Of a DNA stretch of 46,935 nucleotides, positions 15,790 through 24,996 are shown piece after piece; the first letter of the stretch is position 1; each line of letters begins with the position of its first letter. The position numbers were made by a program, and so were the translations under genes. The notes under the pieces were generated by a model. It did no database searches. It was given only the letters and a program-made list of their open reading frames with translations, and was not told where the DNA came from. Origin of the DNA: Chthoniobacteraceae bacterium (GTDB taxonomy: Bacteria > Verrucomicrobiota > Verrucomicrobiia > Chthoniobacterales > Chthoniobacteraceae); contig CANIWM010000050.1 of assembly GCA_947471505.1 (NCBI GenBank), positions 1 through 46,935 of the forward strand, in the 5' to 3' direction.

Positions 15790-17400
15790 ATGGCGCGCGG
15801 GCTTCTCGGCTTTGATGTTCAGGATTCGACGCGCGAAAAGCGGGGTGGTGGGGCGTTCCTGTGGACGGTTGTTTTGCTCCTGCTGACGGGGGCTGCGCTG
15901 GCGAGCTGGATTGGTTCCTTTTACGTCATCGGCCACCCGGAACTGCCGAGCTGCTACCGGTTTTTGAAGAAGCTCAAAAAGCTGGAGTCGCCGTGGCAAT
16001 TTGGAGTGATCAGCGACCCGGTGAGAAAAGAAGACCCAGCCCGGAAAGGCCGACGGACAGAACCTCCGCGCGGGACGTTTCTTTCGCCAAAGCAATTATT
16101 GGAGCGCGTGCCGAAGGCGGAATCGGAGTCGCTTCTCGGCTTTGGCACGATGAGCAAAAAGAAGATGGTGGAGAACAACGCGGAGCTTCTGCGGATGTAT
16201 CTAAAAAACTACCGCGAGAACAAGAAATCGGTTCCCTATGTGACGGGAGTTTTTGAAGTCGTAGAGGCGCATCTTTTGAAAGCGGGCGACTTTTTCCCCA
16301 GCGGCGTCGTGGCCCTTACTCAGGCGAAGGATTACCCGCAGGTGCTCGTGGAGATGGTCTTTCCGGCGAACAGCGCGAGTACGAGGACGATCCTGAGCCT
16401 GCTGCCGAGAGGGCGCGAGATCACGCTTGAGCGCTCGCGTGATTTGGCCGCCGTGATTCACTGCGAGCGGATGTCGGACTCGCAGATGCAGTTCACCGTC
16501 GTTCCGCTTTTATATGGCGCTTTTCAACTCAAGGACGCGCGCGGCAGCTTCACGCTCAAGAGCCCCGAGGACTTGGAAGACCCGAAGTATGGTGGGAGCC
16601 CGATCAACGCCATCAACATTGATGGCAGCTTCCCGATTATCCAAGGAATGCGCTTTCAGCAGGACTTGGCCGATTACGCCACCTATCGGCGAAAAATTCT
16701 CGCCAGCGGTGAGGCGGAACGCCCCGCGCCCAGCCAGATCATAGCCCTTCGCTCCACTACGCCCGGCGGCGAGCCTGTGGAAGTCGCGACGCCCAAAGTC
16801 ATCCGCGAGGCGGCCCCGCCTTTACCTACTCCTGCCCCTGCGCCCACGCCGATGCCGACGCGGACGCAGCGCAATCCGACGAGTTCCGTCGCCACGCCGA
16901 CGCCGCGGCCTGCGATCATCAATTCTGTCGCCCCGACTCCCGTGCCGCAGCGATTCCCGCTTGCTCCGCGCCCGATTGTCCGCGCGGCCCCGCAGCCTGT
17001 CGCGCCGCCGACGCCGGAGCCGGAGCCGCCGAAGCCGGTCGTGCTTTCGATGCCTCCCGTGAAGCGGCAAGCGCTCACGACAAAGGAAGCGAGCGCTCTG
17101 GTGGACTCGTTCGACCCATCTGCCGAGATGGTAATCAGCGGCGAATTTGTTGTCACCGGCGTGCTCGGCCAGCGCGTCGCTCTACGTGCCAGCGAGGCAC
17201 TGCGCGACCGTGATGCCGACCCTACGGTCGCAGGTACGACGGGTGCGATGATCGTTGTGGATTTCCCGCAGGGCATCCAGCCTCCCGCAAAAGATACGAC
17301 CTTCTCGCGCGACGGTGCGCGTGGCTTTCGTATCAAGTCTATCCGCCGTTCCGGCACCGGGCAAATCACGATTATGGCGGAGGATGCGGCGAAACCGTAG
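15790..17400 (+). CDS. Single-pass membrane protein with Pro-rich linker, unknown function
   Basis: A 536-residue protein with a short cytoplasmic N-terminus, one transmembrane helix at about residues 24-47 (FLWTVVLLLLTGAALASWIG), a soluble domain to about residue 310, a Pro/Ala/Thr-rich linker at about 335-430 (PTPAPAPTPMPTRTQ and similar) and a C-terminal beta-rich domain (SGEFVVTGVLGQRVALRASEALRD). The linker is the kind that spans periplasm or a cell wall layer. I do not recognise the globular domains. It begins four bases after the Fe-S carrier gene and ends 24 bp before the SGNH/MBOAT operon, so it may be the first member of that transcript. Confidence 0.75.
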   Translation: MARGLLGFDVQDSTREKRGGGAFLWTVVLLLLTGAALASWIGSFYVIGHPELPSCYRFLKKLKKLESPWQFGVISDPVRKEDPARKGRRTEPPRGTFLSPKQLLERVPKAESESLLGFGTMSKKKMVENNAELLRMYLKNYRENKKSVPYVTGVFEVVEAHLLKAGDFFPSGVVALTQAKDYPQVLVEMVFPANSASTRTILSLLPRGREITLERSRDLAAVIHCERMSDSQMQFTVVPLLYGAFQLKDARGSFTLKSPEDLEDPKYGGSPINAINIDGSFPIIQGMRFQQDLADYATYRRKILASGEAERPAPSQIIALRSTTPGGEPVEVATPKVIREAAPPLPTPAPAPTPMPTRTQRNPTSSVATPTPRPAIINSVAPTPVPQRFPLAPRPIVRAAPQPVAPPTPEPEPPKPVVLSMPPVKRQALTTKEASALVDSFDPSAEMVISGEFVVTGVLGQRVALRASEALRDRDADPTVAGTTGAMIVVDFPQGIQPPAKDTTFSRDGARGFRIKSIRRSGTGQITIMAEDAAKP

Positions 17401-17424: not shown

Positions 17425-18498
17425 ATGCTCCCGCGCCGTGAAATTGCCCGAGAGCCCAACCTACATCTGCTGCGCGTGACTGCTGAAAAGAAACAGCCAT
17501 CCCACGTCCGACGGCTCATCGTGGGCGCTCGCAATGTTGCACTGTTTTTTGGCGCGCTCGTTGGCGTGGGGGCGATCCAATCGCGAAATATCACGGTGCC
17601 AGAAGGCGGCTCGTTGTGGCGAAAATGGCAGCACATCTCCGAGCGGGGCGCGCAGTATTCGCTGCTCTTTGTCGGCTCTAGCCGAGTGGAGCATCATTTC
17701 ATCCCAGAGCAGTTCGACGCGATGCTGAAGGAGCAGGGGCATTCGGTGAAGTCGTTCAACTTTGGGCAGGATGGGATGTTCCCGCCGGAGAGTCTTTACG
17801 TCCTGCGCAAGCTGCTGGAACACACGCCTGCACGGCCTCGCTGGGTGTTGATCGATTTGATGGAGTTCACGCCCGTGCTTCCGAAAAACGAATACGGAGA
17901 GCGGGCGGTGTTGTGGCACGATTGGCATCACTCGTGGAGGACCTTGCAATACGTCACCGCTTCGCAAATGCCGCTCTCGGAGCGGATGGACGCCGCTTTT
18001 TACCACGCGGGATTGCTGATGCAGCGCACTGTCGGAGTGGGCGACGGGCAGGCCCCGTTGCAACTCCAGTTGAAGCTCGTGCAGCCGAGAAAGTCTCCGA
18101 CGATTGCCAACGCTGGATACGAGCCGCTGGCTGCGCGGCCTTTGTCGCCGGAGGAGGAGGGCAAGTTCCGTACGGGGCTGGCGAGCCTCCAATCGTCAAC
18201 GAGGCAAATCGAGATGCCCGCGCCTTACCGCGCCGAGCTGGAGGAAATCGTCGCGCTCGTCCGTAGGCATGGGGCGGTGCCGGTGTTCGTGGTCGCTCCT
18301 GTTTGCAATACGGAGCAGCGCTTCAAGGACTGGCCGCCTGCGGATGTTGCGCAGTTTTCGTATGATCACCCGGAGACGTACCCGACGTTGTATTTGGCCG
18401 AGCAGCGATACGATGCCGAGCATCTCGACGCGGCGGGCGCGAAGGAATTTACGCGGATATTCGCGACGGAATTTGCCGACTGGCTGAAACGCAAATGA
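17425..18498 (+). CDS. Membrane-anchored SGNH-type protein 1 of the MBOAT operon
   Basis: A 357-residue protein with one N-terminal hydrophobic segment (about residues 31-50) and an SGNH/GDSL-like domain outside. Block I is LLFVGSSRVEHH (Ser85/Ser86), a second conserved block is GQDGMFPPESLYVLRKLL, and a C-terminal YDAEHLD supplies the DxxH dyad. This resembles DltD and the AlgJ/AlgX group, which hand acyl groups to extracellular polymers. It is a diverged paralogue of the next two genes, longer at its N-terminus and less similar. ATG 17425 is the first start; a GTG at 17476 is possible. Its stop overlaps the start of the next gene (ATGA). Confidence 0.78.
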   Translation: MLPRREIAREPNLHLLRVTAEKKQPSHVRRLIVGARNVALFFGALVGVGAIQSRNITVPEGGSLWRKWQHISERGAQYSLLFVGSSRVEHHFIPEQFDAMLKEQGHSVKSFNFGQDGMFPPESLYVLRKLLEHTPARPRWVLIDLMEFTPVLPKNEYGERAVLWHDWHHSWRTLQYVTASQMPLSERMDAAFYHAGLLMQRTVGVGDGQAPLQLQLKLVQPRKSPTIANAGYEPLAARPLSPEEEGKFRTGLASLQSSTRQIEMPAPYRAELEEIVALVRRHGAVPVFVVAPVCNTEQRFKDWPPADVAQFSYDHPETYPTLYLAEQRYDAEHLDAAGAKEFTRIFATEFADWLKRK

Positions 18499-19502
18499 GG
18501 GCTCTTCTCAACATCATCGCAATGGTCGTCGGCTTTATCGCTGTGGCCGCAGTGCTTTCAAAAAAGACGCCCCCTCGCTACGTGCCGACCGTCACCGAGA
18601 AGCTGAAGCGCTACGCCTCTGCGGGCGACGACTTTGATGTGCTCGCGATTGGCTCCAGCCGCACGTATCGACAGATCATCCCGAAGGTGTTCGACGAGGC
18701 GATGGCAGCAGCGGGCAAGCCCACGCGCACGTTCAATCTCGGCATTGATGGGATGCGTCCGCCGGAAGACACCTATGTGCTGGAGAAGGCTCTGGCATTG
18801 CGTCGCAAGCCGCTGAAATTTGTCATCGTCGAGTGTAACAACATCCGCTTCGAGGTGCGCGACGAGGACGCGGACACCGTGCGCGCAGTCCACTGGCACG
18901 ACTGGAAACGGCTCGTCACGATAGGTCGGCTCGCGTTTTATGGGGACAGAAAGAAGCGTGGTTTTGGCGACACGATGAAGCGGCGGTTCGATGTGTTTCC
19001 CGAGTTCTGGGAGCACACGGAGTATTGGTTTGAGAACGTGACAGAGCTAGGGCGCGGCAACGAACTTCTCTCGGCGCGACTCTTCGACACGACAGACCCG
19101 AAGAAGTCCATCGGCTCCGATGGATTCCACGATTCTCCAGTCCGCACTGGGCTGTCTGGCAAAGAACTCGCCGCGTATGAAAAGGACGTGGAAGCCATGC
19201 GAAAGACGCCGCCGCGTGCGGAGCGCTCGGAGTGGGTAAGCCAGGCGGAACTCGCGGAGAAGCGCCGCATCATCGAGCGTGCCGGGGCGAAGATGATCCT
19301 CGTCGTCCCGCCGTATCCCATGACGAAGCGGTTCCTGCCGGACGGCGAGAAGGAGCAAGCCGCCGTGATCGATTTCTCGAACCCGCTGGAGTTTCCCGAG
19401 CTTTATACCCCCGAGCACCGTCTCGATGAAGGGCACACGAATCGCACCGGCTCGGAGATATACACGCGGCTGATCGCCGAGCGGATTTTACGGCAGCTAT
19501 GA
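18495..19502 (+). CDS. Membrane-anchored SGNH-type protein 2 of the MBOAT operon
   Basis: A 335-residue protein with an N-terminal membrane anchor (IIAMVVGFIAVAAVL) and the same SGNH-like plan as its neighbours: VLAIGSSRTYRQIIP (Ser54/Ser55), GIDGMRPPEDTYVLEKAL, and LDEGHTNRTGSEIYTRL with the DxxH dyad. It shares the GSSR, DGMRPPED and terminal H-x-N-x-x-G-S-E motifs with the following gene, so those two are the closest pair. Start ATG 18495 overlaps the preceding stop, and its own stop overlaps the next start by the same ATGA arrangement. Probable role: transfer or removal of acyl groups on an exported glycan together with the MBOAT protein; substrate unknown. Confidence 0.78.
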   Translation: MRALLNIIAMVVGFIAVAAVLSKKTPPRYVPTVTEKLKRYASAGDDFDVLAIGSSRTYRQIIPKVFDEAMAAAGKPTRTFNLGIDGMRPPEDTYVLEKALALRRKPLKFVIVECNNIRFEVRDEDADTVRAVHWHDWKRLVTIGRLAFYGDRKKRGFGDTMKRRFDVFPEFWEHTEYWFENVTELGRGNELLSARLFDTTDPKKSIGSDGFHDSPVRTGLSGKELAAYEKDVEAMRKTPPRAERSEWVSQAELAEKRRIIERAGAKMILVVPPYPMTKRFLPDGEKEQAAVIDFSNPLEFPELYTPEHRLDEGHTNRTGSEIYTRLIAERILRQL

Positions 19503-20488
19503 AAGGGCTAAACGTCGTCGCATTCATCGCCGGGTTCGCGCTCATCGCCGCTGTGCTCTCGCGAGCGGTGCCGTCGGTGCGTCCGCCGCAGATTGGCGCG
19601 AAGCTCGATTTTCTCGCACAGCACGGTGCGGGCTACGACACGTTTTTCATCGGCTCCAGTCGCGTGCATCGGCAGATCATCCCGGACCTTTTCGATGCGG
19701 AAATGGCCGCGCTGGGCGTGAAGACGAACTCCTTTAGTCTCTCCGGCGACGGGATGCGCCCGCCGGAAGATGAGTTCGTGATGGAGCGCGCCTTCGCCAG
19801 CCGCACCGCGCCCGTGCGGCTCTTGCTCGTGGAGTGCAACTCCGTGGAACCCGGCCTCGTCGAGGACGACGCGGGCACTGCGCGCGCCGTCTATTGGCAC
19901 GACGCAGCACGGATGGCGCGGCTGTGGCGCAATTGTTGGGCAGCCCCCACGGCCTCGCGCGTGTGGAAAAGGCTGCGCCAATTCCCCGAGCACATTCAGC
20001 ACTGGGCGTGGAACGCGGGGCGTCTCGGCGAAGGCAACGAACAACTCACCGCGATGCTCTTCGGCCAGCCGCCGCGCGACGACGCGCGCGAAGTCGGCGC
20101 GGACGGGTATCACGTCCCCAAGACCGTCCCGCCCATGAGCGGCTCCGCGCTCCGTGCCTACGAAAAGGATGTCGCCGCCGTGCTCAAGTCCCCGCCGCCG
20201 CGCGATGAGGAGGACTCCGAGAGCCAAGCCTCCCTCGCGTGGAAGCAGGCGCTCGCCACGAAACTGGGCGCGCGGCTCGTGCTCGTGTCCTCGCCGTTTC
20301 CACGGCCTGTCGTCTTCGCGCCGACGGGAGACATTACCTTCCTCGATTTCTCCAGTCCCGTCCGCTACCCCGAACTTTACGCCCCCGAAAACCGCCGTGA
20401 CCCCGGTCATCTCAACGTCCGTGGGTCGGAACTCTACACACGCATCATCGCCCGGCAGATTGCCGCCGCGCTTCAACCGCAGCCATGA
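19499..20488 (+). CDS. Membrane-anchored SGNH-type protein 3 of the MBOAT operon
   Basis: A 329-residue protein, N-terminally anchored (VVAFIAGFALIAAVL), with TFFIGSSRVHRQIIP (Ser53/Ser54), SGDGMRPPEDEFVMERAF and RDPGHLNVRGSELYTRII carrying the DxxH dyad. It is clearly homologous along its full length to the preceding gene, including the YWHDAARMARLW region that parallels HWHDWKRLV there. Translational coupling is indicated by ATGA overlaps on both sides. Retention of all apparent catalytic residues in three consecutive copies argues that each is functional rather than a decaying duplicate. Confidence 0.78.
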   Translation: MKGLNVVAFIAGFALIAAVLSRAVPSVRPPQIGAKLDFLAQHGAGYDTFFIGSSRVHRQIIPDLFDAEMAALGVKTNSFSLSGDGMRPPEDEFVMERAFASRTAPVRLLLVECNSVEPGLVEDDAGTARAVYWHDAARMARLWRNCWAAPTASRVWKRLRQFPEHIQHWAWNAGRLGEGNEQLTAMLFGQPPRDDAREVGADGYHVPKTVPPMSGSALRAYEKDVAAVLKSPPPRDEEDSESQASLAWKQALATKLGARLVLVSSPFPRPVVFAPTGDITFLDFSSPVRYPELYAPENRRDPGHLNVRGSELYTRIIARQIAAALQPQP

Positions 20489-22227
20489 CACTCGCAGCCA
20501 TCGAACCCGCAAAACCCATCCTCTTCGTCGAATTTCGCTTCCTCTGGATATTCGCCATCATCTTCGGCGTGAACTGGCTGCTGCGCTCGAACACGGCGCG
20601 CAAAGTCTGGCTGCTCGTGTGCAGCCACGTCTTCTACTGCTGCTTTTTCATCGGTGCCCCGTCCGAGTTTTTCCCGAATCTCTTCGCGGGAAAATGGGCC
20701 GATCTCCCCGCTGGCTGGTGGTTCCCGTCGCTCCTGTGGTTTAGCACGATCATGGACTACTATGTCGGCGTCGGCATCGAAGATGCGAAGACCGACCGGC
20801 GGCGCAAACAGTGGGTCGCCATGAGTCTGCTGGTGAATCTCGGGGTGCTCGGCTTCTTCAAATACTACGGCTTCTTCGACCAAAATGTGCGCGCCGTCGT
20901 CGCGTGGATGGGCCTCACGCCGAGCTGGGAGCCGCTGAAAGTTTTCCTCCCTTACGGCATTAGTTTCTACACCTTCCAAAGCCTCAGCTACTCGCTCGAA
21001 GTCTATCGCAGAAAGCTCCCCGCCGAGCGCAGCTTCCTCAATCTCGCGTTCTTCATCGCCTTCTTCCCGCAAGTCGTCGCGGGGCCGATTGTGCGCGCGA
21101 TGACGTTCCTCCCGCAGACTTTGAAAAAGGTGGAGTGGTCCAGCGTGGATGTGCGTGGCTGCCTCGCGCTGTTCCTCATCGGCTTCGTGAAAAAAGCCTG
21201 CATCGGCGACACGCTCTCGCAAGTCGCCGACCCGTATTTCGCATCGCCCGAGACGCACAGCGCCTATAGCGCGTGGGCTGCATCGCTGGCCTACGCGGGG
21301 CAGATTTACTGCGACTTCAGCGGCTACAGCGACATGGCAATCGCTGTCTCCCGGCTGCTCGGCTACGAGTTGTGCGTGAACTTTGCCTTCCCCTATTTCA
21401 GCAACAGCATCACTGAGTTCTGGCGGCGCTGGCACATGAGTCTTAGTTCGTGGCTGCGCGATTATCTCTACATTTCCCTCGGCGGAAATCGCGGCTCCAA
21501 GCTCTTCACCTACCGCAACCTCATGCTCACGATGGTGCTGGGCGGGCTGTGGCACGGCGCGTCGTGGACGTTCGTCGTATGGGGCGCGATGCATGGCGTC
21601 GCGCTCATCGTCCATCGCGAGTGGGAGCGCATCACTGCAGCGGCGGCGGGCGTCGGCAAAGTGATGAAAGTCATTGCTGTTCCTCTCACGTTTTTCTGGG
21701 TGTTGCTGACGTGGATTCCGTTTCGCGCGAACGACATTTACACGGATAAACCAAACGCGACGGATAAGGGGGCCAAGCTCCTGAGCCGCAGCAGCGCGGG
21801 GTTTCAGAGCCTCGATAAAGATGACCACGAAAAACCGATGGCCTATCCATTTGCAAAGACGGACGACAAAAAGACCGTCGCCCTGCTCGCCCACGATGCG
21901 AAAACGAACACTTGGACCGGCACAGGAGCGGACGGCAAACCCGCCACCATCCACCTCCACCAAAGCGGCTTCGCTCTCACCGCGAAAGTCTGGGAATCGC
22001 TCGTCCTTTTCAAAGACCACGCTAAGCGCAACGTGTGCGGCAACTTCATCTGGGCCATCCTTGGCGGCCTCACGATTGTCCATTGGCTGAACTCCCGCAG
22101 CCTGCTGGCCAAGTGGTGGCGCATCGTACCCGACTGGCTCTACTCCCTGCTCCTCGGCGCAGGCTGGGCCTTGGCGCTCCACTGGAAAGTCGTCGCCTAC
22201 AAGCAGTTTATTTACTTTCAGTTCTGA
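20485..22227 (+). CDS. MBOAT-family O-acyltransferase (AlgI/DltB-like)
   Basis: A 580-residue polytopic membrane protein of the membrane-bound O-acyltransferase family, which carries an acyl group across the inner membrane for attachment to an extracellular polymer. Family motifs are clear: PYGISFYTFQSLSYSLEVYR, FFPQVVAGPIVR, DFSGYSDMAIAVSRLLG, EFWRRWHMSLSSWLRDYLYI and the catalytic GGLWHGASWTFVVWG with His357. The start overlaps the third SGNH gene (ATGA), which pairs the enzyme with those partners as AlgI is paired with AlgJ/AlgX. Unusually, an approximately 80-residue hydrophilic segment (about residues 415-495) replaces the usual short loop after the IPFRA motif, before two further membrane helices. 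Confidence 0.9.
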   Translation: MTLAAIEPAKPILFVEFRFLWIFAIIFGVNWLLRSNTARKVWLLVCSHVFYCCFFIGAPSEFFPNLFAGKWADLPAGWWFPSLLWFSTIMDYYVGVGIEDAKTDRRRKQWVAMSLLVNLGVLGFFKYYGFFDQNVRAVVAWMGLTPSWEPLKVFLPYGISFYTFQSLSYSLEVYRRKLPAERSFLNLAFFIAFFPQVVAGPIVRAMTFLPQTLKKVEWSSVDVRGCLALFLIGFVKKACIGDTLSQVADPYFASPETHSAYSAWAASLAYAGQIYCDFSGYSDMAIAVSRLLGYELCVNFAFPYFSNSITEFWRRWHMSLSSWLRDYLYISLGGNRGSKLFTYRNLMLTMVLGGLWHGASWTFVVWGAMHGVALIVHREWERITAAAAGVGKVMKVIAVPLTFFWVLLTWIPFRANDIYTDKPNATDKGAKLLSRSSAGFQSLDKDDHEKPMAYPFAKTDDKKTVALLAHDAKTNTWTGTGADGKPATIHLHQSGFALTAKVWESLVLFKDHAKRNVCGNFIWAILGGLTIVHWLNSRSLLAKWWRIVPDWLYSLLLGAGWALALHWKVVAYKQFIYFQF

Positions 22228-22263
22228 TGCAATAATCGGGGTGATTCGGTGATTTATACAACA

Positions 22264-24996
22264 ATGCCTGCACTCCATATCAGTCTCATCTTTGCCCTCT
22301 CGCTCTCGGCTTTCGCGGCTGCACCGGAGGGCGTGGATTTTTTTGAGAAACGTGTGCGGCCTTTGCTGGCTGAGCGGTGCTTGGAGTGCCATACGGCGGG
22401 GAAGAAGACGAAGGGCGGGTTGGCGCTGGATTCGCGGGCGGGCTGGGAGGCGGGCGGCGATAGCGGCGCGGCGATTGTGCCGGGGAAGGTGGAGGAAAGT
22501 CTGCTCATCAAAGCGGTGCGTTACACAGATACGAACCTCCAGATGCCGGAGAAACGGAAGCTGCCCGATGCGGAGATCGCGGTGCTGGAGCAGTGGGTGG
22601 CGATGGGTGCGCCGGACCCGCGCGAGGGTGCGGCGGTGGCGAAGAAGCAGACGGGGATGAGCTTGGAGGACGGGCGGAAGTTTTGGTCGTATGTGCCGCC
22701 GCGAAAGGCTGCGCTGCCGCCGGTGAAGGATGCGGCGTGGCCGCGCAATGCGGTGGACTATTTTGTTTTGGCGAAGCTGGAGGCGGCGGGGCTGCGGCCT
22801 TCGGCGGATGCGTCGCCGGAGGTGTTGGCGCGACGGCTTTCGCTGAATGTGACGGGGCTCCCGCCATCGGGCGAGACGCTGGAGGCGATGCTGGCGTCGC
22901 CGCAGTTTGGCGAGCATTGGGGGCGGCACTGGCTGGACGTGGCGCGGTTCGCGGAGTCGTCGGGCGGAGGGCGGACGTTGCTGTATAAGGATGCGTGGCG
23001 GTATCGGGATTATGTGATCGGAGCGTTCAATGTGAACGTGCCGTTTGACCGGTTTTTGCGGGAGCAGGTCGCGGGGGATTTGCTGGCGGCAGCGTCGCCG
23101 GAGGAGCACGGGCGTTTGCTGACGGCGACGGCTTTTCTGGCGCTGGGGCCGACGAACTACGAGGAGCAGGACAAGCAGCAGTTGCGGTTCGACGTGATTG
23201 ACGAGCAGCTCGATACGATCGGGAAAGCCGTGCTCGGGCAAACGGTGGGCTGTGCGCGGTGCCATGACCACAAATTCGACCCGATTTCGCAGAGGGATTA
23301 CTACGCAATGGCGGGGATTTTCGCGAGCACGCGGACGTTGTTTAACTACACGGATAACGTCGCGCGCTGGGTGGATGCGCCGCTACCTGTATCGGCGGAG
23401 CAAGAGGCGGCGCTACGCTCGCACGAGGAGGCGGTGGCGGCGCTGAAGGCGAAGCTGGCAGCGGGGAAGAAGACGGTGGCGACGAAGAATGTGGCGGCGG
23501 AGACGCTGGCGGGGATCGTGGTGGACGATGAGGATGCGAAGGCGGTGGGGACGTGGGAGCATTCGCAGCGGATCGTGGGCTACATCGGCAAGGGCTACCG
23601 CACGGATACGAATATGGCGAAGGGCGAGAGCACGATTACGTTTGTGCCGAAGTTTCCTATGGCGGGGCGCTACGAAGTCCGGCTGGCCTACGTCCCCGGC
23701 GAAAACCGCGCGAGCAATGTGCCCGTCCACATTTTCCACGCAGACGGGGAGGCGGAAGTGACGGTGGACGAGGCGGTGCCGCCGCCGCTGGATGGGCGGT
23801 TTGTTTCGCTGGGGACATTCCGCTTTGAAAAAGATGGCGCGGGCTACGTGCTCGTATCGAACGAAGGGACGAAGGGCTTCGTGATTGCGGACGCAGTGCA
23901 GTTCATCGCGGAAGGCGACGCGGGGAATGCGGAAAAGACGGACACAAAAATGCTGGAAGCAGAGATGAAGCGGCTTGCCGCGAGCGGCCCGAAGCGCCCG
24001 CTGGCGATGGCGGTGAAGGAGCAGCCGGAGGACATCGGCGATACGAACATCCGCGTGCGCGGCGTGGTGCATCAGCGCGGGGAGCTAGTGCCGCGCGGCT
24101 TTCTCTCGGTGGCTGCGCAGCCGATGAAGCTGCCAGCTAAAGAGAGCGGTCGGCGCGAGCTGGCGGATTGGCTGACGAGCACGGCGAACCCGCTGACGGC
24201 GCGTGTGTTTGTGAATCGTGTGTGGCAATGGCTCTTCGGCGAAGGGCTGGTGCGGACGGTGGATAATTTCGGCACGACGGGCGAGGTGCCGTCGCACCCG
24301 GAGTTGCTGGATTGGCTGGCTGTGGAGTTCATGGAGCACGGCTGGGATGTGAAGTGGCTCGTGCGAGAAATTGTCACCTCGCGGACGTGGAGCCAGCAAT
24401 CGGCAGGCGCATCGGCCACGAGCGACCCGGATAACCGTCTCCTTTCCCACTACCCGCGCCGCAGGCTTGCCGCGGAGCAGCTCCGCGACGCGATGCTCGT
24501 CGCCAGCGGCGAGCTCGACCGCGCAGTGCTCGGCCCGAACATCGCGGGAGCGGGAGTCATCGATGCGAACGACACGAGCGCGCAGAACATCGAGTATCGC
24601 TACGAGTTTCAGGATATGCGCCGGAGCGTGTACACGCCCGCATTTCGCAACCGGCGGCTGGATTTGTTTGAGGTGTTCGACTTTGGAAATATCAACGCGA
24701 CTCTCGGCGCGCGGACGACGAGCACCGTGGCACCGCAGGCGTTGTTCTTTTTGAACCATCCGTGGGTCGCTGCCCGCGCCCGCGCCGCTGCGGTGCGGTT
24801 GCTGAAACGCGAGGCTCCCGACGCAGCGTTGCTCGATGAAGCGACGCAACGCACGCTCGGGCGTATGCCTTCGCCCGGCGAACGTGCGAAGCTGCTCGCC
24901 TTCCTCTCCACGAACGCGCGCATTGACCGCGAAGGCGCATGGGAGCAAGTGTTCCAGACGCTTTTCGCCAGCGTGGACTTCCGCTATTCCGAATAG
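22264..24996 (+). CDS. Secreted cytochrome-c/DUF1549/DUF1553 (PSD1-type) protein
   Basis: A 910-residue exported protein of the type abundant in Planctomycetota and Verrucomicrobiota. After a signal peptide (ISLIFALSLSAFAAA) comes a planctomycete-type cytochrome c domain with C39-L-E-C42-H43, then DUF1549 (about residues 155-360; DVARFAESSGG, NVPFDRFLREQVAGDLL) containing a second haem-type motif C330-A-R-C333-H334 in GCARCHDHKFDP, a beta-rich insert at about 420-550, and DUF1553 (about 610-900; NPLTARVFVNRVWQWLFGEGLV, ASVDFRYSE at the end). Family members are linked to polysaccharide degradation and are usually followed by a DUF1501 gene; none is present here. The biochemical activity is unknown. 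ATG 22264 is chosen over GTG 22249. Confidence 0.88.
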   Translation: MPALHISLIFALSLSAFAAAPEGVDFFEKRVRPLLAERCLECHTAGKKTKGGLALDSRAGWEAGGDSGAAIVPGKVEESLLIKAVRYTDTNLQMPEKRKLPDAEIAVLEQWVAMGAPDPREGAAVAKKQTGMSLEDGRKFWSYVPPRKAALPPVKDAAWPRNAVDYFVLAKLEAAGLRPSADASPEVLARRLSLNVTGLPPSGETLEAMLASPQFGEHWGRHWLDVARFAESSGGGRTLLYKDAWRYRDYVIGAFNVNVPFDRFLREQVAGDLLAAASPEEHGRLLTATAFLALGPTNYEEQDKQQLRFDVIDEQLDTIGKAVLGQTVGCARCHDHKFDPISQRDYYAMAGIFASTRTLFNYTDNVARWVDAPLPVSAEQEAALRSHEEAVAALKAKLAAGKKTVATKNVAAETLAGIVVDDEDAKAVGTWEHSQRIVGYIGKGYRTDTNMAKGESTITFVPKFPMAGRYEVRLAYVPGENRASNVPVHIFHADGEAEVTVDEAVPPPLDGRFVSLGTFRFEKDGAGYVLVSNEGTKGFVIADAVQFIAEGDAGNAEKTDTKMLEAEMKRLAASGPKRPLAMAVKEQPEDIGDTNIRVRGVVHQRGELVPRGFLSVAAQPMKLPAKESGRRELADWLTSTANPLTARVFVNRVWQWLFGEGLVRTVDNFGTTGEVPSHPELLDWLAVEFMEHGWDVKWLVREIVTSRTWSQQSAGASATSDPDNRLLSHYPRRRLAAEQLRDAMLVASGELDRAVLGPNIAGAGVIDANDTSAQNIEYRYEFQDMRRSVYTPAFRNRRLDLFEVFDFGNINATLGARTTSTVAPQALFFLNHPWVAARARAAAVRLLKREAPDAALLDEATQRTLGRMPSPGERAKLLAFLSTNARIDREGAWEQVFQTLFASVDFRYSE

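Follow-up and report, generated by a model that had tools for sequence, protein, structure and literature searches.

How one membrane-bound O-acyltransferase (MBOAT) can be served by three SGNH-type partner proteins, and whether those partners act one after another or side by side, is the question raised by a gene cluster of a Chthoniobacteraceae bacterium (Verrucomicrobiota; GenBank assembly GCA_947471505.1). The window, i.e., the whole stretch of 46,935 nucleotides analysed here, is contig CANIWM010000050.1, one contig of a draft genome of 6.07 Mb and 97% completeness, labelled G000. It contains a head-to-tail quartet on the + strand, S1-S2-S3-MBOAT, with open reading frames of 357, 335, 329, and 580 amino acids (Table 1). 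The first-pass annotation of this DNA had described three tandem paralogues with GSSR, DGM(F/R)PPE, and DxxH motifs, followed by an MBOAT gene and joined by an ATGA overlap at each junction, and this description was confirmed. With a probability of roughly 60%, the results suggest that the module would pass an acyl group through the inner membrane and attach it to an external polysaccharide, with the three S proteins acting in parallel.

Pairwise protein comparison showed 42% identity between S2 and S3 (E 2e-90), while S1 shared 25.5% identity with S2 (E 8e-28) and 28% with S3 (E 1e-30), and judged from these alignments the three proteins are true paralogues. All three motifs were found in each of them, the central one reading DGMFPPE in S1 and DGMRPPE in S2 and S3, and the C-terminal one DAEHLD, DEGHTN, and DPGHLN, respectively. 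Structure prediction, which had been proposed as a check, gave AlphaFold models of S2 (mean predicted local distance difference test score, pLDDT, 86.8; predicted template modelling score, pTM, 0.85) and S1 (mean pLDDT 83.6; pTM 0.79) in which an N-terminal membrane helix precedes an SGNH-type fold, and S3 is expected to have the same fold from its 42% identity with S2. The top Foldseek match was DltD for both S2 (E 1.7e-3, probability 0.99) and S1 (E 7e-4, probability 1.00), at TM-scores so low that the matches establish the fold class of S1 and S2 and not close kinship. With VIA-align, platelet-activating factor (PAF) acetylhydrolase was matched at Z 14.6 by S2 (3.9 Å, 173 residues) and at Z 12.4 by S1 (3.7 Å, 173 residues), PatB at Z 12.3 (S2) and 11.1 (S1), and many further SGNH enzymes were matched as well.

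Of the two Ser residues in GSSR, the second is assumed to be the nucleophile, as the first can be Thr in relatives. In an alignment of 49 rows, the catalytic Ser and His were conserved in every homologue covering them, and the Asp nearly so. A check of the oxyanion-hole residues (block II Gly and block III Asn) showed that alignment position 81 changes from Asn to Ser in S3 and that position 115 is variable. In S1, Asp replaces Asn two residues past the catalytic His, and other residues close to the catalytic ones (e.g., positions 84, 88, and 272) are fixed within and different between S1, S2, and S3 in the three genomes that carry all of them. At the level of sequence families, S1-S3 matched neither a Pfam family at E 1 nor an NCBIfam family, DltD included; they did not match PF16822 (ALGX), of which no match was found in G000 at all. 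The DHHW family (PF14286) had no match anywhere and was uninformative, and profile A2 gave no meaningful match against sequences of the Protein Data Bank.

The MBOAT matched PF03062 with 98.8 bits (cut-off 27; E 5e-28), and its closest solved structures were DltB (E 3e-41), while its score of 158 bits lay below the NCBIfam cut-off of 375 for the DltB equivalog (TIGR04091). An MBOAT with membrane-anchored SGNH-type partners, as first annotated, was thus borne out by the Pfam match, by the predicted fold of S1 and S2, and for S3 by homology. At the very end of the protein, residues 575-580 read FIYFQF, matching the acyl-shuttle motif FXYXXF with Tyr577. This motif was missed in the first-pass annotation, and on the basis of sequence it is the mechanistic key to the locus. 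The pattern F-x-Y-F-Q-F was invariant in 17 aligned MBOATs (from relatives and from the same genome), as were His 317, 357, and 370, and the motif was present in all module relatives with a complete MBOAT gene. His357 is presumably the catalytic His. It was previously reported that PatA auto-acetylates the Tyr of its C-terminal FXYXXF hexapeptide, which in turn is the donor for PatB, and that DltX bears the same motif (PMC12148441). An insert of about 70 residues in the MBOAT was considered as a dock for extra partners and rejected, since its presence is independent of SGNH copy number. In much of the family, each genome has about one MBOAT of a second kind, which lacks the C-terminal shuttle motif (L034:7582-9123, - strand).

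The S-family profile matched in 36 of the 213 genomes of the order, and outside the order only three of 387 genomes spread over the phylum gave weak partial matches. An MBOAT that carries the shuttle motif directly follows the S gene or genes in the great majority of loci, which represent several families of the order. Most loci contain one S copy; two copies were found in G008, G014, G028, G132, and G148, and at least two in G031 and G135, whose loci are at contig ends. Three copies occur only in G000, G006, and G009, which belong to a single genus, so that the 3:1 arrangement is indeed unusual (3/213 genomes), and a neighbourhood survey, also proposed beforehand, showed its conservation in these genomes and one or two copies elsewhere. 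A tree of 49 S proteins placed S1 in type A and S2 and S3 in type B. G001 (100% complete) and G007 (96%) have a lone type B copy beside an MBOAT, G044 (93%) and G026 (86%) one of the S3 lineage, and G024 (92%) one of type A. The S genes of G018 (C39:372087-373040 and 388290-389273) are unlinked to the MBOAT of the clade, which is on another contig (C9:202269-203774). The module of L062 and L068, which come from another family of the order, lies within a gapA-pgk-tpiA glycolysis neighbourhood, in L068 between pgk and tpiA.

Phylogenetic analysis further indicated that the three S genes are old lineages and that the triplet is no recent tandem amplification. S3 and the single S of G026 formed a clade (support 100/98), with the single S of G044 further out, while S2 grouped with type B copies of the same genus with weak support (50/63). 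A recent tandem duplication giving S2 and S3 was rejected by approximately unbiased (AU) tests of sister trees (p 7e-5; with G026, p 0.007). In the MBOAT tree, G026 joined the triplet genomes, and the window genus as one clade was rejected (AU test, p 0.0002). In accordance with this, the MBOAT of G026 is 79% identical to that of the window, as against 38% for the core gene located upstream of S1 in the window. A mis-binned contig was dismissed as the source of the G026 result, since the XseB beside its module is 52% identical to that of the window genome and 71% to that of its own genus, the closest being G018 of that genus; a neighbouring protein of 1211 amino acids gave no information on mis-binning. 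The simplest account of these trees would be that the S3 and MBOAT pair moved as a unit between genera, in one direction or the other. The four genes, their overlaps, and their motifs are all retained in the same-genus orthologues G006 and G009, and the ratio of non-synonymous to synonymous substitution rates (dN/dS) between G000 and G006 was 0.14 for S1, 0.15 for S2, 0.12 for S3, and 0.05 for the MBOAT. Purifying selection therefore acts on all three S genes, and conserved orthologues together with low dN/dS indicate that the arrangement is not due to chance.

In the mechanism that we propose, the MBOAT would use His357 to charge Tyr577 of its own FXYXXF arm from a cytoplasmic donor, which would be acetyl-CoA if the acyl group is, as seems most likely, acetyl. 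The arm would then swing out and the acyl group would pass to the catalytic Ser of an adjacent anchored SGNH protein, presumably docked on the MBOAT, which in turn would esterify a hydroxyl of the polymer. S1, S2, and S3 would compete for the single arm, each probably acting on a different hydroxyl or polymer, and since one arm serves three anchored acceptors, these would have to alternate. The variable copy number (one to three) and the independence of the S3 and MBOAT pair favour parallel over serial action, and the class-fixed residues near the active site fit different acceptor sites, which the first-pass annotation had named beside a relay and which we consider the better reading of the two. 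More tentatively, at somewhat short of even odds, the one acyl-Tyr arm might be a distribution hub for three distinct anchored SGNH transferases, each writing a different surface ester. Several points weigh against the proposed mechanism. The S1 subclade is never found alone and always has a type B partner, and with its Asp-for-Asn change near the catalytic His it could have a dependent or relay role; the support for the single-copy sister group of S2 (50/63) is weak; no polysaccharide synthase was found at the module loci, so the neighbours give no hint of the acceptor; and the genomes compared are draft assemblies.

These features of S1, together with the A-then-B gene order shared by G008, G028, and the triplet and with the AlgIJFX precedent (PMC10641220), are also what speaks for a sequential relay as proposed for alginate, in which the acyl group would go from the MBOAT to one S protein and from there to a second, which acylates the polymer. 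We nevertheless regard such a relay as unlikely. The highly complete genomes with a single S gene imply that one partner is enough for type B, and broadly for type A, and the S3 and MBOAT pair apparently moved as a unit; moreover, all three S proteins have an N-terminal anchor and none resembles AlgX, which is soluble and acts last, and the operon has no recognised AlgF-like gene. An obligatory three-step chain in particular appears unlikely from gene content because a single S gene with an MBOAT occurs in near-complete genomes; copy numbers of one, two, and three all exist, and the S3 lineage as well as both broad types stand alone with an MBOAT.

That single-copy relatives manage with one S protein, and that all three share a common catalytic set, would also suit a simple dosage effect, in which three equivalent transferases speed up one reaction with no division of labour. 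This is improbable given the old divergence (25-42% identity), the rejection of a recent S2/S3 duplication, the similar purifying selection on each copy, and the class-fixed residues near the active site. Even less probable is an esterase role of the S proteins in trimming or proofreading acyl groups, comparable to that of peptidoglycan O-acetylesterases, with only one of the three being the transferase: the SGNH fold covers esterases and transferases alike and the highest Z scores were obtained with hydrolases such as PAF acetylhydrolase, but the best Foldseek matches were DltD, all three proteins are membrane-anchored and encoded in an overlapping operon with the MBOAT, and each broad type is found with an MBOAT and no other partner, a setting in which the role of transferase is the simplest one.

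Three observations make an accessory surface or extracellular glycan a likelier acceptor than peptidoglycan: the module is patchy in its distribution, it has apparently moved between genera, and it nearly excludes another arrangement, ALGX-MBOAT-ALGX; the patchy distribution by itself argues against a PatAB-like action on peptidoglycan. In the 40 genomes of the window's family, 15 loci had an MBOAT with a PF16822 (ALGX) SGNH gene on either side. Strong ALGX matches were found in 18 of the 25 genomes lacking the S-MBOAT module and in one of the 15 having it (Fisher test, p 6e-5; permutation within genera, p 0.006), a pattern noticed before it was tested and drawn from few genera. Examples of ALGX-MBOAT-ALGX in family f1 are G060:C268, G032:C80, and G011:C8, and in G003:C121 the MBOAT is followed by two tandem ALGX genes.

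Compared to known systems, the 3:1 module is a modest elaboration of the MBOAT-SGNH kind of envelope acyltransferase. PatA/PatB of Neisseria and Campylobacter, which acts on peptidoglycan, has the same C-terminal acyl-Tyr shuttle on the MBOAT and an anchored SGNH partner, and PatB matches S1 and S2 in fold; a sequence-level relation of S1-S3 to PatB was not detected, and there is one SGNH partner there and three here. In teichoic acid D-alanylation by DltB/DltX/DltD, the MBOAT is related to that of the window, DltD is the best fold match of the S proteins, and the shuttle motif is the same; in contrast, the motif is on the DltX microprotein there and on the MBOAT itself here, a single DltD is present, and the operon described here has no DltA or DltC. 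Alginate and cellulose acetylation share with the window the service of one MBOAT by more than one SGNH protein: AlgI works with AlgJ and AlgX, for which a relay model was proposed (PMC10641220), WssH works with WssI and WssF, for which two terminal transferases were also considered, and bcsII of K. xylinus has two SGNH partners (PMC10302187). These systems have two different SGNH types, AlgF or WssG, and a polymer synthase cluster, whereas here there are three paralogues of one family outside PF16822, no recognised AlgF, and no synthase nearby. The ALGX-MBOAT-ALGX loci of the same bacterial family also have one MBOAT beside two SGNH genes but differ in having PF16822 proteins on either side, often divergent, and they are largely absent where S-MBOAT is present.

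Two SGNH partners per MBOAT are thus already known from alginate and cellulose and common in the window's family, MBOATs with SGNH proteins and an acyl-Tyr shuttle have been described (PMC12148441), and two partners for AlgI and WssH are known or have been proposed (PMC10641220, PMC10302187). The earlier proposal of a system undescribed in kind is therefore not supported, and neither are an obligatory relay and the membership of the upstream gene, while the SGNH partners and the rarity of the 3:1 ratio stand. In the open-licence papers searched, no report was found of three paralogous partners of one family in an overlapping operon, nor any paper on MBOAT and SGNH proteins in Verrucomicrobiota.

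Table 1. Features of the S-MBOAT locus, in window coordinates.
Feature	Coordinates	Strand	Remarks
S1, SGNH-like acyltransferase (predicted), type A	17425..18498	+	N-terminal membrane helix aa 27-53; Ser86-Asp330-His333
S2, SGNH-like acyltransferase (predicted), type B	18495..19502	+	N-terminal membrane helix aa 2-24; Ser55-Asp311-His314
S3, SGNH-like acyltransferase (predicted), type B (sublineage with G026, G044)	19499..20488	+	Ser54-Asp301-His304
MBOAT (PF03062), DltB-like fold class	20485..22227	+	580 aa
MBOAT His357 codon (LWHGAS), expected catalytic His	21553..21555	+	Invariant in 17 MBOATs
FIYFQF, FXYXXF acyl-shuttle motif, MBOAT C-terminus	22207..22224	+	Putative acyl-acceptor Tyr577
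MBOAT insert of about 70 residues, predicted extracytoplasmic	21745..21957 (approximate bounds)	+	Precedes last two membrane helices; from alignment, topology inferred
ATGA stop/start overlap, S1-S2	18495..18498	+	
ATGA stop/start overlap, S2-S3	19499..19502	+	
ATGA stop/start overlap, S3-MBOAT	20485..20488	+	

The gene upstream of S1 (15790-17400) is a real gene for a membrane protein with a Pro-rich linker and no Pfam family. Its membership in the module, suggested by the first-pass annotation, was rejected, since it is a core gene that 38 of the family's 40 genomes have, whether or not they carry the module, and in most of them it is located elsewhere. In G000, G008, and G009, it adjoins an IscA-type Fe-S gene. 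In G006, an open reading frame of 944 amino acids with a type III restriction/helicase domain (PF04851; L035:4261-7095, - strand) lies between this core gene and S1, indicating that the junction is not fixed. Just 3' of the MBOAT (22249-24996) is a gene for a planctomycete-type cytochrome c / DUF1549 / DUF1553 protein with an inserted Golvesin C-terminal domain, present in G006 too. A scan for promoters and terminators gave the same counts as in shuffled sequences and was uninformative. A search for related loci with a narrower alignment gave eight named ones, the named relatives being Verrucomicrobiota assemblies, including Chthoniobacteraceae / Spartobacteria.

The S-type SGNH family itself is without a Pfam or NCBIfam model. 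How one MBOAT serves several SGNH proteins is debated for alginate and cellulose, with relay and parallel models both current, and the family described here, in which the same type of MBOAT has one, two, or three paralogous partners, supplies natural versions of one machine for telling the two apart. If the single arm does act as a distribution hub, gain or loss of SGNH genes would alter the acylation pattern of these bacteria while the donor enzyme is unchanged.

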